Below, one piece after another: positions 3,954 to 54,989 of a DNA stretch of 64,000 nt (positions are counted from its first letter, which is position 1; every line of letters starts with the position of its first letter). The position numbers and the translations under genes were made by a program. The notes beneath the pieces are model-generated. The model was not told the DNA's origin and made no database searches. It worked only from the letters and a program-made list of their open reading frames with translations. Origin of the DNA: Aldrovandia affinis (lineage: Eukaryota > Chordata > Actinopteri > Notacanthiformes > Halosauridae). The stretch covers positions 1,054,001 through 1,118,000 of the forward strand of contig JAINUG010000174.1 in the NCBI GenBank assembly GCA_029706075.1, given 5' to 3'.

Positions 3954-4847
3954 CTAGTTGATTGCTGATCAAGGAAAGTAAGTAGAAACGGGTTGAAATA
4001 GTCATCGTAGGGTTAAAGGTAAGGTTTGTGCCTCTGTTTCCAGTTCACCAGCTGCCACACATATATATATATGCATACAATATAAGAGGGGAAACGAGAA
4101 ATGGGCAAGACAGAAAAGCAAGCTATTACCAGGAATGTGTGCCATCACAGTGATCAGGGAAATCACACCGAATATCTTAGCCAGTCTTTTGTTGGCAGCC
4201 TGGCTCCTGTTCATCTCCTTGGCGCTCCTGAATATAGTGTGCAGGATGTGGACGTAGAAGTACAGGTTCAGGGGCAGGAAGACCACAATCTTCACCAACA
4301 TCAGGATTTGCATGGCCTTGTCGTTGATGAAGGAGAAGCAGGTGTGGTTGACCTCGTCCAGGTGGTCCACGCCGCTGCCCAGGAGACGCTGGCCCAGCTC
4401 CTTCATCAGCACGGGGACGAAGGGGAAGAGGAGCTGGAGGGCCAGGAAGGCCTTGCGGTCCACCGCGCGGCTCCACCCGCACACGATGGTGAGGTAGATG
4501 GAGAAGGAGATGAAGGCGGTGTAGTGGAAGGAGGCCGAGCTGGTCACGTGCTTCACGCTCACCATGACCTCGCACAGGGTGTGGCCCAGTGCCCAGCGCC
4601 CGTGGGCCCTCCAGTGCATGGTCAGGGGCCACAGCGCGAGGTTGACGATGTTGCCCGTGGCGCTGCCCAGGATGAACGTGGCCACGTTCTTCTTTATCCT
4701 GCTCCTCCCGCCCAGGATGCAGGAGGCCAGGGCGGCGAGGACGAAGACGTTCAGAGCCAGGCCGGGCACCAGCAGCAGGACCTTGGAGAAGGTGCACATG
4801 TTCAGGTAGACGGTGACGTCGCAGAAAGACGACAGGCTCCGGTTCAT
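3796..4847 (-). CDS. Divergent rhodopsin-class GPCR, two exons, possible pseudogene
   Basis: Model: exon 1 4847-4130, intron 4129-3954, exon 2 3953-3796. The first ATG in the open frame gives MNRSLSSF; the frame is open further upstream but has no ATG there. Exon 1 encodes 239 residues with six hydrophobic segments. GPCR landmarks are N33 in TM1, W73-P74 in TM2, C92 at the top of TM3 paired with C170 in the second extracellular loop (NHTC), P192 with 'LPLNLYFY' in TM5, and P239 in TM6. N2 and N167 are potential N-glycosylation sites. The TM2 LAxxD, TM3 DRY and TM6 CWxP signatures are not conserved (GSATGN, GWSR, MAHIP). This suggests a membrane receptor with atypical G-protein coupling or relaxed constraint. 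Exon 2 supplies TM7 and a basic tail, but a TAA is its second complete codon. I do not recognise the subfamily. The exon is strongly GC-rich compared with its AT-rich flanks. Confidence 0.75.
3954..4129 (-). other. Predicted 176-bp GPCR intron
   Basis: It starts GTAATAG at 4129 and ends CAACTAG at 3954, with a short (TA)n run at about 4062-4075. The reading frame of exon 1 stays open across most of it to a stop at 4002. Unspliced translation would give a six-helix protein with no TM7, which is why splicing is preferred. Confidence 0.55.
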
Positions 4848-6415
4848 GACCGCAGGAGACGACGCTGCCTCACAGACGGGAGAGAGAGTATAGGGGATAA
4901 GGACGAGGCAGGGCAGGGCAAAGGAACAGCCAGGAGCTAGCGCTGACAATTAGGCAGACGTGGCTTGGCGCCCGATGAGCCCCCATTCAACAATGACGAC
5001 GCAGGGATTACGGTGGGCTAACCGGCTGGGCCGGAGTGAGACGTTTTCTCAGCAGGTTTAAAGACAGTGACACCGCTTCCATCCAGAAGGTTCTTAGATG
5101 CACAGCCAGAACAGCGCGGTTCCTCCATGAGCTCACCCGGAGTGCTGGGTCTGGTGTTTTTCTCACCTTTTCAACTCATTGCGACAGAAGGATTTTTCAT
5201 CAGCCTATCCCAGTGGAACCAATTACGACAGTCTCGGGTCATAATCCTCTCGTTCTTATCTGGGATTTTACCATGATCACACTGCTATAAGGATGATCCT
5301 TTGGTCTGGTGGGTACTTAATTGATGAAGCTTATCTTTTTCATATTCGCACTTAATTAAGTTTTCAGCTAATTTATGTTTTTTTTCTCGTTTCGTATATT
5401 TTAAGAGTAAAACGTATTAACCGTATTTGAACGAATTATTGGTTTTACAGATCAGTTCCCTTCATGTTAACCTTACAATTACAGTTCCTTCTACGTGGAA
5501 TATGTAGCAGATAGAAAAATGTGAAAAATTGATCATTACCAACTTCCATTGGTTAGAATGGTGTCATACTGCTCCCTGAACATGCACAGCACAGAAACAC
5601 TTTTTATACATGCATCACCAATGTGCTGGGCGATGTGTCATCCCAGCGATTTTACCTTTTGATATTCCGTTTTTTTCTTTTTCCCAAGGCTTGTTGATTC
5701 TACTTTTTCCATCTAATTAATTTGCTTGTTAGTTGCACATCATTAATAACCCAGTTACCCCTTCCAGTGCTGGAGACGGCAAATCTCTCTAATGAGCTTG
5801 AAGGGCTGTTTGTTTACTCCCTGCGTTCGCTGCACCTGAGCAAACGTGGCACGGAAAGGGTCTGGTCGAATCTCTCAACACTCGCCCTTATGAGTGGGCA
5901 GAAATTGTGTGTGTGCATGCGTACGTGCATGTATAATATATATTAGATATCTAATCAAAAACCTTTTCAACATAAAAGTTACAAGTTACTCTCTGAGGCA
6001 TATACTCTCTGTACACACAAAACAAGTACCTATGTTGTAACAAGGCGCAATAGGCACCCCTTTTATTTGAAGAAAACATACTAATAGACAAAGAAATACT
6101 GAAAAATATTGCACACAAATATTATATTGTAAAAATCCAAGATATATACAAATAACAAATTGAAACTGAACAACAAATAAAAATAAATAGCATGCTTCTT
6201 TTAAAAGGAACAAATATAAGGAGATGCTGTCCAAGACAATAAATAAGAACACTGAAACATATTGCACACTAATGTAAAAATTGAAGGTGCACACAAATAA
6301 AACTAAATTGAACACAGCGGAGTTGCACCTTTTCAATACTGCCTCAATGTGGCAGAAAGTTCTTAACAGAATGAGGTGCTATTCTGTATTTCCACATCAC
6401 ACCTGGCCCCTATAT
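4848..6415. other. Region upstream of the GPCR, non-coding
   Basis: On the minus strand, 4848-5300 should contain the promoter or 5' UTR of the GPCR. An alternative is an upstream non-coding exon joined at an acceptor such as TGTGAG near 4872 or TGTCAG near 4945. No clear TATA box was found. The stretch 6060-6320 holds two imperfect copies of a motif ending ATATTGCACAC, possibly 3' untranslated sequence of the hAT relic next to it. Confidence 0.35.
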
Positions 6416-9119: not shown

Positions 9120-9695
9120 GATTTTTATTGTAATTCTGGAAGACACTCATCACACCCTACACCCCAGCCAGACCCCTTCGCTCTGCCTCCTCTGGCAAAC
9201 TGACTGTCCCATCCCTCAAGGCCCCAGGCACCCGCTCCTCATGGTCTCGCCTCTTCTCTGTCCTGACCCCCTCGGTGGTGGAATGATCTTCTGCACTCAG
9301 TCAGGACCCTGGAATCACTGGCAATCTTCCGCAAAAGACTCAAAACCCACCTCTTCAGACTCCATTACCACTGAAATCTGTACATCTAACTAATTGTCAT
9401 CACCATTGCTTACATGTTTAATACTGCTTTTCGTATATTTATCCTTGTTTAAAACTTTCTCAAACAGAAAAAAAAGAAAAAAAGAAGAAGAAAAAAGAAT
9501 ACTAATTGACTAACCTTTTCCTTCCCGGTGTTACAGGTACAGTATGCAGCTGCCAACAACGATGTCTATCGCTGTATTACTGCACTGATCTCTCGCGCGA
9601 ATAATGATTGATCATACCGTGTATTAATGCACATCTTGTAAGTCGCTCTGGATAAGAGCGTCTGCTAAATTCTTAAAATGTAAAATGTAAATGTG
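9120..9695 (+). mobile_element. L2-like LINE, ORF2 end plus 3' UTR
   Basis: Plus-strand frames give 'PGTRSSWSRLFSVLTPS' and 'ESLAIFRKRLKTHLF'-like sequence (through 9320-9380), the typical C-terminus of fish L2 ORF2. The 3' UTR follows and the element ends with 'GTAAGTCGCTCTGGATAAGA' GCGTCTGCTAAAT and AAAATGTAAA repeats near 9695. A purine-rich A/G run interrupts the UTR around 9468-9500. The copy is 5'-truncated and has frame breaks. Confidence 0.78.
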
Positions 9696-10374
9696 TAAGC
9701 GTCCAAAGAAATTGCATATAGCCCACGCAAAGAGGCCATAATCCTGCTGCAATCCTTTCAGCTCGTGGGGGCTTTGATGCTGACTAGAAAGAGGGCGTCG
9801 GAGAAAGGGACCACGACCGGGAACTAAACTGAAACCCACGCCGATGCGCAGGGGCTGGCGCAGCTGAACTCGGCATCTCCAGAACGTCCCTCCAGTCATG
9901 GGCAGATCACGCGCAAAGGAACAACTATTTCCCTGAGCTGGCTGACTGCCAACCCCACACCAAACAGCCTGCTTCCTGAATTCACTGCAGAATTCTTCAA
10001 AATTATTCACTGTACTCAAAAATAAATTGTACTGAACAATGAGTACTGAATGATAAAATAGCCTTAACAGTGGAGTGTATTTATTGGTTTGTGAAAAGGG
10101 TGCTAGGTCCATGGAGTATGCGAAAGGTATCAGAAAAATGAGAGAATAGACGGTTTTGGACCCACGGCTACTAAATGTTATTAAACCAACAAACAATGAT
10201 ATGCTTTGGACACCTAGAACCTTGAACTTTTAAAATATTTTGTTTTCTTCACAAACAGTTTGTTGAGGCAATAGTGATTTTGAACTCAGCAAAATGTTCT
10301 TTTGAATAAAAACTCAAAACATTTGCATTTCATCGTAAATCAAAGTTAAGGACACATATAGACAGATATATAAA
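9696..10374. other. Non-coding, no feature seen
   Basis: The minus strand stays open over 10196-9624, but the product has no recognisable domain and part of it is LINE 3' UTR. Treated as chance. Confidence 0.4.
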
Positions 10375-34000: not shown

Positions 34001-34269
34001 TTCAGCTGGTGGACTGTGGAGGGAAACAAAGCGCCGGCTTGCTGCATGCTCTTTGAAGGAGAGCGTATGCTCGCCCGCGCTCTCTTCCGAACCGATGGAG
34101 GACGTTGCAGCTATCAGATTGGGATGAGATTGGGCGTTCCACATTGGGGAAGACAAAAAATCTATGATAAAATGTGATTCAATAAAAATGCCAGGCACGT
34201 ACACAAAGGTGACACAAGAGGGTAAACATGTCCACCACCCCGTTAAAGGCACAAGCTGTGCCTGTAGAC
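31039..34269. other. Non-coding, GC-rich in places
   Basis: Contains a (CA)n run near 32360-32380 and G-runs at 33580-33598 that could form a G-quadruplex. Open frames at 33716-34177 (plus, 153 codons) and nearby shadows have no recognisable domain, no clear splice signals and no known family, so I do not call a gene. Confidence 0.35.
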
Positions 34270-34482
34270 CAGGGGTGTCAAACTCATTCCATCGAGGGCC
34301 GAGTGTGTGCAGGTTTTTGTTGCACCCAATGCACTACTGCAGGTGATTTCAATTAGGTCCCTCCCTTGGTTGAAGAAGTGGGCTGATTAGTGAAATCACC
34401 TGGTGTTGTGCATTGGTTGCAACTAAAACCTGCACACACTCGATGCCCTCGATGGAATGAGTTTGACACCTGTGCTGTAGAC
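34262..34482. mobile_element. hAT-type palindromic MITE, copy 2, with 8-bp target duplication
   Basis: The element proper is 34270-34474. The ends CAGGGGTGTCAAACTCATTC and GAATGAGTTTGACACCTGTG are inverted. The 8-bp direct repeat CTGTAGAC lies immediately outside both ends (34262-34269, 34475-34482), as expected for the hAT superfamily. Same family as the copy at 1272. It has no coding capacity and must rely on a transposase made elsewhere. Confidence 0.93.
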
Positions 34483-35574
34483 AGACACATTGCTTGGAGA
34501 CTGTACGCTTACTGTACGCAACACAGGCCGGGCCGTATCGATCCCAGTGTGAAGAAACACCAAGCGGCGGATGGGCAAGTGGAAGCGGAAGAGTCGGTGA
34601 CAACAGCCAATGCGTCAGTTCCACGGAGGAGGAATCAGGCAGGCGGGCTCTGACAGAGAGCCTTGCCTCAGTGACAGGTAAATAACAGTGCTCAGAAGGC
34701 GGGGGCAGGGCCAATCAGAGCTGAGAGCCCTTCACAAACGGGACGTGTCACAAATAAATGATGCCCTCATCTCTCGTGTCTCCGTGGCCTTGTTAGCCCG
34801 TAGCTAATGAGCAGCGCTGTAATGAGTAAATGAGAGGAACAATACAAATGTGGAGAGGCTATGGTGTAAGAGGATATGACTGTGTGCGCCGCAATTAATT
34901 TTTTTGCCAGCTTGAACAATGAGAAGAAACATTGATCTGAAGTAAAGCATAACCAGTTATTAGGAGCGTTGGGCTCTTACTAAGGCATTAATCACAAGCT
35001 AACAATTATCTCTCATTATTAGAACGCAAAGAGCTGTGACTGATTGGGCGTTGATTTTTTGGTCGTAATGCTGTACCTCTGTAAATATTGAAACGGAGCT
35101 CGTTCAAATCTGTGTGTGTGTCGAGTGGCTTTGAAAACACAAGATAAGGGTAATTAGCAGATTTGTTTCTATCCCGCCTCATTTTTTACAGGGTTTACAA
35201 TTGATACACCTGCCCCTGACAAGCAGGGTAATTTGAAGGGGAATCCGGACATCTTTATCAGATTCTCGATAAGGGGAAAAAAAGGCCAACAAGGGAAAAA
35301 TGGCCCATGAATAAACAACAAAGCAGCATATTTGTGTTCCCCTGCATCCACATCCCTCTCCCCTCGCCTGTCCGACTCTCTCTATCTCTCCACCTTCTCT
35401 GTCGTTCCCAAGAGCCCAATCAGTGATGTCATCAGCCGGGGACGCAGTGTGTCCCTCTCAGTCCAGGAGTGCCAGCCTGCCACACATTTGGTTAGGGGTC
35501 ACTGTTGATATCATCAGGAGTTCCTGTACAAATGCAGTCCTGCACCTGTGACCTTGGCAGTGAACATCCTGTAC

Positions 35575-36633: not shown

Positions 36634-37269
36634 CCCTACAGGACCCAAAACACAGTGCACCTAGGTACAGTAGGACCATATGTCAAATTCACGGTGAGGG
36701 AGTTATTTCTCATATTCTGGAGACCTTCACTGTTGCCCAGTACGTGGTTTATTTCCAACAGTGCCACTAGATGGCACTGTTCCTGTTCAGTTCTAACATT
36801 TCAGTAGATTCTCAAAAGAAAAAAGATTTTAAAAAGTCCCTGCTCACACTGAAAAGAACATTAATTATTGATCAGCATTTTCAGACCTTGTATTTGTACA
36901 TATCCTTCATACCTATGTGGTTCTCTTATGGAATGTGACATGTACTGCACCCTCGATGTCACATTATGCCACCTTACACATTGTTCAGCAGAATGCAGTT
37001 TGGATAAGTTAAAAGAAGGCATTTGGATGTGAATGTGAATGATTTAAAATGTAGTTTTCTATAGTACACTAAGGTACGTCCCCTTCAAATAAACCCAAGA
37101 GCCAATTTAATCGTAATTTATTTAAAGCAATTCCTCCTCTAAGATACAACCTACCATTGGAACAGTATAATCTAATTGGAAAGCTGGAATGTAAAGAGTA
37201 TGTCCTTGAGGAAAAAGTTTCTGAATGGCAGTCAGACAGACAGCGCTATATATATATAAATGTATATAT
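36634..37269. other. Non-coding, no feature seen
   Basis: AT-rich. CACTAGATGGCACTG near 36763 is a CTCF-like motif. No gene was seen. Confidence 0.35.
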
Positions 37270-37413
37270 GTGCCATTTAGCAGACGCTTTTATCCAAAGG
37301 GACTTACAGTAGTGAATGCATACATTTTTCAGTATATGTGGTCCCAATGGGAATCAAACTGACAACCTAAGCATTGTCAGCACCATGCTGTACCCACTGA
37401 GCCACACAGAACC
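37270..37413 (-). mobile_element. tRNA-derived SINE with L2-type tail
   Basis: On the minus strand the head TGTGTGGCTCAGTGGGTACA and GTCAGTTTGATTCCC match tRNA A and B boxes. The end is GTAAGTCCCTTTGGATAAAA GCGTCTGCTAAATGGCACA, a variant of the L2 tail. It lacks the central domain of the copy at 24361, so it is a different, shorter SINE type. Confidence 0.8.
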
Positions 37414-53436: not shown

Positions 53437-53441
53437 GGTAC

Positions 53442-54267
53442 TGTGGAAGGCGTCGGTCTCAGCAGCGGATCAGGGCGATTAGCGGCCACGCCTACTGGCA
53501 GAGCAGCCAGCGCACGCACCGGTCTGGTGTTGCTAATCACATCGGTGTGCTTTAAAACTGCTCTGCTCTCTTCAGTAGGTGGCTGGAACAAGAAAGAAAA
53601 GGCGTGGGAGACCGAGGAGAAAGAAAGAAAGAAAGCAAAGCAAAGCAAAGCAAAGCTTTCGGTTATGGTTTAAATGGTTGTTGTGTTTATTTTGTTTATT
53701 TGGTTTGAAAACTCCCGGTCTGGTTCTCTGCCCGTGTCGGGATCAGAGAACGTCGAAAGATAAAATCAATAAAGAATCCGGTCCGTAGACCGAAAACTCC
53801 AACCCTGTTTCCAGACTGCTCTGTTCCGTACAGGGAGTGTCACGTGGCGTGTGACAAAGTGGTGCCGAAACCCGGGAGAAAAGAGCAGTCTGGAAACAGG
53901 GTTGGAGTTTTCGGTCTACGGACCGGATTCTTTATTGATTTTATCTTTCGACGTTCTCTGATCCCGACACGGGCAGAGAACCAGACCGGGAGTTTTCAAA
54001 CCAAATAAACAAAATAAACACAACAACCATTTAAACCATAACCAAAAGCTTTGCTTTGCTTTGCTTTGCTTTGCTTTCTTTCTTTCTTTCTCCTCGGTCT
54101 CCCACGCCTTTTCTTTCTTGTTCCAGCCACCTACTGAAGAGAGCAGAGCAGTTTTAAAGCACACCGATGTGATTAGCAACACCAGACCGGTGCGTGCGCT
54201 GGCTGCTCTGCCAGTAGGCGTGGCCGCTAATCGCCCTGATCCGCTGCTGAGACCGACGCCTTCCACA
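53442..54267. mobile_element. Palindromic LTR insertion (two inverted LTR-like arms around a PBS loop)
   Basis: The arms 53442-53822 and 53882-54267 are inverted copies, differing by one CAAAG unit (4 against 5) and one C/T substitution. The loop 53823-53881 holds the rest of a U5-like region ending GTGACA and, 3 bp later, TGGTGCCGAAACCCGGGA (53860-53877), which has the form of a tRNA primer-binding site. The left arm plus loop therefore looks like a 415-bp LTR (TGT...ACA) with AATCAATAAAG as a poly-A signal near 53765, followed by a PBS. The right arm is the same LTR in reverse, lacking its last ~34 bp. The unit is flanked by GGTAC on both sides (53437-53441, 54268-54272). There is no gag or pol. 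Confidence 0.88.
53860..53877 (+). other. Primer-binding-site-like sequence
   Basis: TGGTGCCGAAACCCGGGA begins with the TGG that pairs to the CCA end of a tRNA and lies 3 bp after the presumed LTR end, the normal position in LTR retrotransposons. The primer tRNA is not identified. Confidence 0.7.
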
Positions 54268-54312
54268 GGTACTATACCCAAACTGTTACAATGTTACATG
54301 TACAGTATGTCA

Positions 54313-54313
<1 letters not shown>

Positions 54314-54358
<45 letters not shown>
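54314..54358 (+). repeat. (CA)n microsatellite
   Basis: A CA run of about 45 bp begins some 45 bp beyond the palindromic LTR insertion. Confidence 0.95.
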
Positions 54359-54362
<4 letters not shown>

Positions 54363-54989
54363 AAGGTAATAAAATGCTTCTGTCTCTCAGAAGAAGCCCA
54401 CAGACAGAATATCTATCGGCAATACCCTTTTGTCATTGCCATTTTAATCTGAAATAATAATAATAATCAAATCTAATACGTTTTGTGTGCATTCAAATGT
54501 GGCCCATTTGTTGGAAACCGTGCATGGAGGAAATGCAGGAATATTCAGAAAGGTTTATAATGTACGCTGGCCCCATTCCTGTTTAAAAAGAAAGTCAGGA
54601 ACACAGAGTTTTGTACTACCCTGCTTTTGAACAGACTTGTGTGCTCACACTTCTCTGAGGTGCTCCAGCTAAGGCAGATGCAGTCAGCTGTCTAATTAGT
54701 ATTAGATATTTTGGCCGCATTGGGTATGTAGCCCAGCCCGGGGTCTTTTGAAATCCCACACGTCTAACAACAATCTATAGCCTTAAGTAAAATAAAAAAA
54801 TAAAAACATAATAGGATTTATTTCTTAGTGAAATATTGATATTTCTTAGAATTGTAGTTGACATTAAGTGCTGATTTTGTTCCCATCTGGCTCCAGTTTC
54901 CAGAATTCATTGAAAATGGTTACCGGAAAAAGACCTTTCAATCTGCACCAATACCGGCTTCTGGACACAAAACTGTGTCAATACCTTCT
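54359..54989. other. Non-coding, no feature seen
   Basis: AT-rich sequence. The last ~90 bases may already belong to the LINE that follows, but the frame is not readable. Confidence 0.35.

Follow-up and report, generated by a model that had tools for sequence, protein, structure and literature searches.

A palindromic LTR unit with two outward U3 termini and its probable origin at a U5-leader inverted repeat

In the normal course of LTR retrotransposition, integrase receives a U3 end and a U5 end. The window, i.e., the whole 64-kb stretch of DNA that was analysed, contains a unit of inverted LTR sequence with a U3 terminus on either side, and it has to be asked how such a unit is made and how it was inserted. 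The unit is real, and there is good support for a two-U3 LTR palindrome whose ordinary parents are present in the same genome. It may be new, as the searched literature, which lay mostly outside subscription journals, yielded no published natural equivalent, neither a palindromic or inverted LTR nor a two-U3 insertion; work on self-priming, template switching, inverted duplications and the concerted integration of U3 or U5 ends contained no matching element either. Probably, the nascent plus strand of a Gmr1-type Ty3/gypsy element turned at a repeat shared by U5 and the leader, which gave rise to a palindromic LTR with U3 outward on both sides, and this product would then have been inserted by integrase with a target-site duplication (TSD) of 5 bp.

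Anatomy of the unit

The initial annotation had described an 826-bp inverted unit with GGTAC duplicated on both sides, nearly identical inverted arms of about 380 bp and two U3-type outer ends, and each of these features was found again. The unit occupies positions 53442-54267 (826 bp) between the two copies of GGTAC (53437..53441 and 54268..54272, without strand), and the anatomy as well as the flanking GGTAC can be read directly from the letters. The exact arms measure 381 bp (53442-53822) and 386 bp (53882-54267) and are separated by a spacer of 59 nt, which shrinks to 51 nt if one mismatch is allowed. They differ by one substitution and by one 5-nt unit in an AAAG/CAAAG tract; it is inside this simple tract that MAFFT scores the second arm difference. 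The outer termini, TGTGGAAGG and CCTTCCACA, are both U3, and the pair of one U3 and one U5 end that marks an LTR insertion is thus not present.

Read from left to right, the unit has the order U3-R-U5-PBS-leader, followed by an inverted partial U5, R and U3. It begins with a complete LTR of 415 bp on the plus strand (TGTGGAAGG...TGTGACA, 53442..53856), to which ordinary copies fetched from the genome that match through LTR, primer-binding site (PBS) and leader are 85-98% identical. On the same strand, TTTAAA at 53551 may be a promoter and AATAAA at 53768 a polyadenylation signal, and U5 contains one half of an 11-nt inverted repeat (CTGCTCTGTTC, 53816..53826, plus strand). The letters AAG after 53856 separate the LTR from the PBS (53860..53877, plus strand), and the leader segment GAAAAGAGCAG (GAACAGAGCAG in ordinary copies) at 53878..53888 on the plus strand contains the point at which the sequence turns round. 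The right arm is an inverted truncated LTR on the minus strand (U3-R-partial U5, 53882..54267), which lacks the last part of U5 and the PBS, overlaps the leader segment with its first 7 bases (53882 onward) and has the U3 terminus CCTTCCACA as its outward end. The loop is informative, as it contains the remainder of U5, the PBS and the first part of the leader, which makes the left half a complete LTR; the initial annotation gave the size of the loop correctly as 59 nt and missed this content.

The 18 nt at 53860-53877 are the complement of the 3' end of tRNA-Phe(GAA). They are identical to the start of a published tRNA-Phe(GAA) probe, given in the available part of PMC7038984, and were therefore assigned as the PBS; a tRNA probe in a passage of PMC7810713, where the tRNA is not named, also contains this 18-mer. 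After the 18 nt, the probes in these excerpts read on as TTGAACC or TCGAACC (PMC7038984, PMC7810713). The unit reads GAAAAG behind the PBS, which is near the GAACAG of ordinary copies, and copying of the leader letters from the primer tRNA beyond the PBS was ruled out, as the continuation of the tRNA differs. Exact matches to the PBS patterns were absent from the viral_contigs and genome_contigs collections.

How unusual the unit is within its surroundings was assessed at several levels. The 64-kb window contains no other copy of this LTR, and a scan outside the unit for inverted pairs with ungapped arms of at least 40 nt and a spacing of up to 3 kb gave three pairs with arms of only 52-58 nt. 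A 5-mer match at the exact spacing of the TSD occurs at 91 of 63,164 window positions (0.14%), and GGTAC alone is therefore modest evidence; it gains weight from its position, which is exactly adjacent to the two LTR termini, and from the 5-bp TSDs of two ordinary family members. RNA of 53580-54129 folds as a single long hairpin (-474.6 kcal/mol vs. a shuffle mean of -151.15, n=100), as expected of any palindrome. Pfam families were found in none of the three stop-to-stop frames of at least 100 aa that overlap the unit, nor in ten further frames of the window. Elsewhere in the window, a 315 aa open frame on the minus strand (4002-4949) matches the rhodopsin-type receptor family PF00001 (E 2.7e-09), and three UnaL2 LINE 3' elements (Rfam RF00436) are located at 289-342, 9626-9678 and 37267-37320. 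The receptor frame and the LINE tails would suit a fish-like vertebrate as host.

Ordinary copies, parent element and copy number

The assembly containing the window comprises 1,222,302,279 bases (1.22 Gb) in 2,576 contigs. A search with the unit as query gave at least 86 matches, a lower bound since 40 of 2,906 first-look candidates were scored. Among the matches listed, the window locus alone matches the whole unit, and at least 21 matches outside the window span LTR and PBS up to query base 452, which is the end of the 11-nt leader segment. Two pairs of LTRs in direct orientation, on C2056 and C1112, delimit elements of about 5.2 kb from end to end. Both of these elements, the two ordinary ones for which both ends were read, are flanked by 5-bp TSDs (GTATG in C2056 and ATATG in C1112), so GGTAC has the TSD length found in 2/2 ordinary elements. 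Thus, the assignment of the unit to an LTR family in the initial annotation was borne out by the complete LTR-PBS-leader and by ordinary copies of the 415-bp LTR, and the full-length parent was found in the form of the two elements of about 5.2 kb.

A purine-rich sequence, GGCGATGGAGGG, precedes the 3' LTR, with one extra G in C2056. In C1112 (L026), a 2.7-kb piece lying between the LTRs codes for the H2C2 and core domains of integrase, followed by reverse transcriptase and RNase H: H2C2, rve and p58_C precede RVT_1 and RNase H, the domains occupy separate reading-frame pieces, and rve lies below the Pfam cut-off. An integrase located before the reverse transcriptase in a Ty3/gypsy element is described as a mark of the Gmr1 lineage in the available part of PMC2774666. 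Judged by this domain order in the one copy examined, the parent is a Gmr1-type Ty3/gypsy LTR retrotransposon.

Some members of the family deviate from the ordinary arrangement. In L016 (C491:653700-656500), two family LTRs lie 1.9 kb apart in direct orientation, and the usual leader after the PBS is replaced by TGAGCTGGGACC... behind both LTRs, with 182 of 235 bases alike when aligned without gaps; L016 is perhaps a non-autonomous derivative in tandem. L014 and L015 (C136:1892652-1898247), with an LTR that has a purine-rich tract before it and a PBS after it, 4.7 kb from another LTR plus PBS, are perhaps tandem elements with a common LTR. In L017 (C1911:1312500-1314000), an internal deletion joins the middle of the LTR to its last bases TGACA, and AATAT is present on both sides.

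The palindrome itself was directly found once: with up to 3 mismatches, the junction pattern has one occurrence in the 1.22-Gb genome, namely at the window, and its reversed control has none. As the junction, searched with this pattern and tolerance, occurs once, the unit is best described as a single aberrant insertion and not as an amplified class. The initial annotation had stated that no named element class has this structure; the searched literature indeed provided no equivalent, whereas the notion of an element class is not supported, and the further palindrome copies that it had suggested searching for did not appear in the search for this junction. Within the assembly, the right flank (54268-54900) has a single matching place; neither a second allele nor a paralogue, and hence no empty site, came to light, and the plasmids collection contained no match to the unit. 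One other locus, L009 (C1945:3424800-3427600), has the same LTR with U3 ends outward on both sides; it was rejected as a second clean palindrome, as its flanks TTGTG and CTGGA differ and form no TSD. By eye, both halves of L009 carry MITE-like sequence at about the same LTR position. The window contains palindromic MITE-like repeats at 1275-1469 and 34252-34492 with a common TGTCAAACTCATTCCAT, which resemble the insert of L009.

The turn-round point and the origin of the palindrome

In the ordinary copies read, except L016 and L018, the leader after the PBS starts with GAGAACAGAGCAGCACCACTGG or a sequence near it. Of the 13 ordinary LTR-PBS-leader copies tested, 12 have a leader segment GAACAGAGCAG that is exactly reverse-complementary to their U5 sequence CTGCTCTGTTC, and the repeat can be seen in them directly; the exception, L003, has one change in U5. 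L016, with its other sequence after the PBS, the more divergent L018 and the 3' LTRs were left out of this set. Where the repeat ends, the leader of the palindrome gives way to inverted U5 (GAAAAGAGCAG followed by TCTGGAAACAGG); matching bases are present at the join, and the turn-round point sits, again as a direct observation, inside the 11-nt U5-leader repeat. Because one base of the palindrome leader differs from the ordinary repeat (A for C), leader and U5 of the palindrome now match at 10 of 11 positions, and pairing of 11/11 at the time of the event holds only if this change came later.

Folding calculations suggest that the two halves of the repeat can pair. In folds of an ordinary copy, CTGCTCTGTTC is predicted to pair with the leader: the RNA of L004 would form a stem of 11 bp whose arms enclose the PBS (z -3.0, 1/200 shuffles as stable), and an L004 DNA strand ending at the leader repeat is predicted to have a fully paired 3' end (z -4.6, 0/200 shuffles as stable). 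The U5-PBS-leader strand of the palindrome itself (53780-53888) would form the stem too, with an unremarkable whole fold (z -1.33, 22/200 shuffles as stable). In RNA of the divergent relative L018, U5 and leader are likewise predicted to pair, although the fold as a whole does not stand out from shuffled sequences (z -0.53, 52/200). According to a duplex calculation, the best LTR site for the leader segment would be U5 at -10.6 kcal/mol, with a nearly equal site in U3 at 53562 (-9.7 kcal/mol).

The plus-strand DNA of LTR elements starts at the polypurine tract. For the unit, this strand would begin there, copy U3-R-U5 and the PBS, pass the second strand transfer and enter the leader. Having advanced 11 nt into the leader, the strand could then pair through its 3' end GAACAGAGCAG with CTGCTCTGTTC in U5, a place given by the sequence of the unit. 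The U5 copy used would belong either to the strand itself, in a snap-back, or to a sister plus strand packaged with it in one particle, and copying would extend to the 5' end of the plus strand. Given the start at the polypurine tract, this 5' end coincides with the U3 terminus, and because copying stops there, both ends of the product would be U3. Snap-back on a single strand leads to a hairpin with one open end, for which a further step is needed; mutual priming of sister strands is preferred because a linear duplex results directly. Finally, integrase would join both U3 ends to the target, a step suggested by the TSD, and the integrase, reverse transcriptase and RNase H domains between two ordinary LTRs agree with such an insertion. 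Parts of LTR-element replication are covered by the available section of a Ty3 overview (PMC5371799), and retroviral integrase is described in excerpts as acting on both viral DNA ends and making TSDs of 4-6 bp (PMC3790719, PMC11054761). What speaks against this preferred origin is the single copy, the fact that the intermediate is one we infer, the leader mismatch, the unremarkable whole folds of the palindrome strand and of L018, the nearly equal pairing site in U3, the extra step needed after a snap-back and the lack of a natural two-U3 insertion in the papers searched.

The main competitor is a rearrangement after integration, which we regard as unlikely and still to be reckoned with. A normal full-length element would have been inserted between the GGTAC copies, and at the U5-leader repeat a replication fork would have left the leader for the inverted 5' LTR, run back to the U3 end and then switched to the outer end of the 3' LTR via ACA. 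The 11-nt repeat could serve the first of these switches, near-identical arms would likewise result, and since both LTR ends finish in ACA (CTTCCACA and GTGTGACA), the second switch, onto the outer 3' LTR end, is possible and would leave the observed letters. Such a course takes two switches, however, the second of which has to fall exactly at the terminus, and this is a coincidence: when flanks of 500 bp are modelled, 3 or more bases match at 10,135 placements (4 or more at 2,836), and the observed structure is one of these, with 3. That the palindrome existed before integration, as the initial annotation had concluded from the matching duplication, is in line with the two U3 termini and the TSD of family length; 'means' was too strong a word, as a double template switch gives the same letters.

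A smaller chance is given to a course in which host repair used microhomology to join two cDNA fragments of sister molecules end to end, with ends in the leader and in U5, respectively, before integrase inserted the product. The product and its ends would be the same, and the matching bases at the join are real, but two independent breaks would have to hit both halves of the 11-nt repeat in an element of about 5.2 kb, whereas pairing and extension would explain the turn-round without breaks. It is very improbable that two ordinary elements entered the same 5-bp target in opposite orientation and that a deletion then ran from the leader of one to the U5 of the other. Near-identical LTR copies do exist, as among 136 pairs of other copies there are 7 with at most one difference, some of these being the two LTRs of one element; nevertheless, the same target would have to be hit twice and a fitting deletion would be required. 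Furthermore, both arms carry an A at 53802/53902; of the 17 other LTR copies in the alignment (made without L018, the deleted LTR of L017 and L009), 16 have C at this place and one has a gap. This private A argues against two elements in one target and indicates that the arms probably come from one source. An assembly or sequencing artefact, e.g., a fold-back read, would be more surprising still: fold-back artefacts produce palindromes, and the assembly sequence was the material here, but a fold-back read would invert the flank too. With low-complexity masking on, the 600-bp flanks share only two inverted 10-base matches (E 0.53), the other inverted matches are CA/TG repeats, and the TSD is exact. 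The probability of a non-autonomous DNA transposon with long terminal inverted repeats, e.g., of the Ginger type, is close to nil. The termini of the unit fit TGTNR, and TDD-4 and TDD-5 make 5-bp TSDs according to the available part of PMC2836005; against this stand the left half with its complete LTR, PBS and leader, the existence of ordinary elements with these LTRs and the junction found once. DNA-transposon and MITE readings were accordingly ruled out by the PBS, the leader, the ordinary parent copies and the once-only junction.

Significance and comparison with known systems

If the palindrome was made during reverse transcription and inserted by integrase, a germline two-U3 insertion with a proper TSD would be natural evidence that integrase accepts a symmetric substrate in vivo; in the excerpt of PMC11054761, simple in vitro integration assays are run with short DNAs modelled on U3 or U5 ends. 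The turn-round at the U5-leader repeat offers a testable route to two-U3 substrates and is relevant to the question of how inverted-repeat DNA transposons could arise from LTR retrotransposons. Bao et al. proposed that the inverted repeats of Ginger1 could derive from two LTRs which by chance were oppositely oriented and, in the available text, called the chain of events unclear (PMC2836005). A palindromic LTR formed in one event by reverse transcription would be a simpler source of matched ends than two LTRs opposed by chance. More speculatively, and with a rather low probability, the U5-leader stem of this family could be a built-in turn-round point at which an LTR retrotransposon is made into a symmetric unit with inverted repeats that its Gypsy-type integrase accepts, and thus a natural and observable step towards an inverted-repeat DNA transposon; further palindromes with other cargo would then be expected in this genome or in relatives. 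A transcript across the unit might also yield double-stranded RNA against the LTR family.

Terms in the literature that sound similar refer to other structures: in the available passages, 'palindromic LTR motif' denotes the TG..CA ends and not a palindromic LTR (PMC2253517), 'inverted LTR' denotes an antisense LTR (PMC8786324), and the accessible text of PMC11302176 contains nothing on such palindromes. A match to the unit, be it among BEL/Pao elements with a tRNA-Phe PBS or through the PBS letters, was likewise not found in the searched literature, which was mostly outside subscription journals.

With its Gmr1-type Ty3/gypsy parent, the unit shares LTR, PBS, leader and a 5-bp TSD within the same genome; it differs from this parent in that a coding region is absent, that a complete LTR is combined with an inverted truncated one, and that both ends are U3. 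A solo LTR, which arises by LTR-LTR recombination and has one U3 and one U5 end, resembles the unit in containing little beyond LTR sequence and in being flanked by a TSD. The unit, however, has two U3 ends, a PBS, a leader and an inverted second LTR in place of the single LTR. Inverted terminal repeats in a reverse-transcribing element are known from DIRS-1, which uses a tyrosine recombinase and circular intermediates according to the available part of PMC5633606. The unit shares the inverted terminal repeats and the reverse-transcribing origin with DIRS-1; by contrast, it has a TSD, and the domains of its parent are of the integrase type and lie between directly repeated LTRs.

Ginger and TDD transposons have symmetric termini of the TGTNR type and a Gypsy-like integrase, with 5-bp TSDs in TDD-4/5, and the same excerpt describes the TGTNR terminus as common to Gypsy LTR retrotransposons as well (PMC2836005). 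The unit resembles them in its TGTGG terminus, which fits TGTNR, and in a TSD that falls within 4-5 bp. It is unlike Ginger/TDD elements or a MITE in that no transposase and no multicopy family were found and in that it is derived from LTRs with a PBS. In retroviruses, e.g., Rous sarcoma virus, a U5-leader stem near the PBS is an RNA structure for initiation. Here too, U5 and leader are predicted to pair around the PBS; unlike its retroviral counterpart, the stem would also serve as a turn-round point for DNA.
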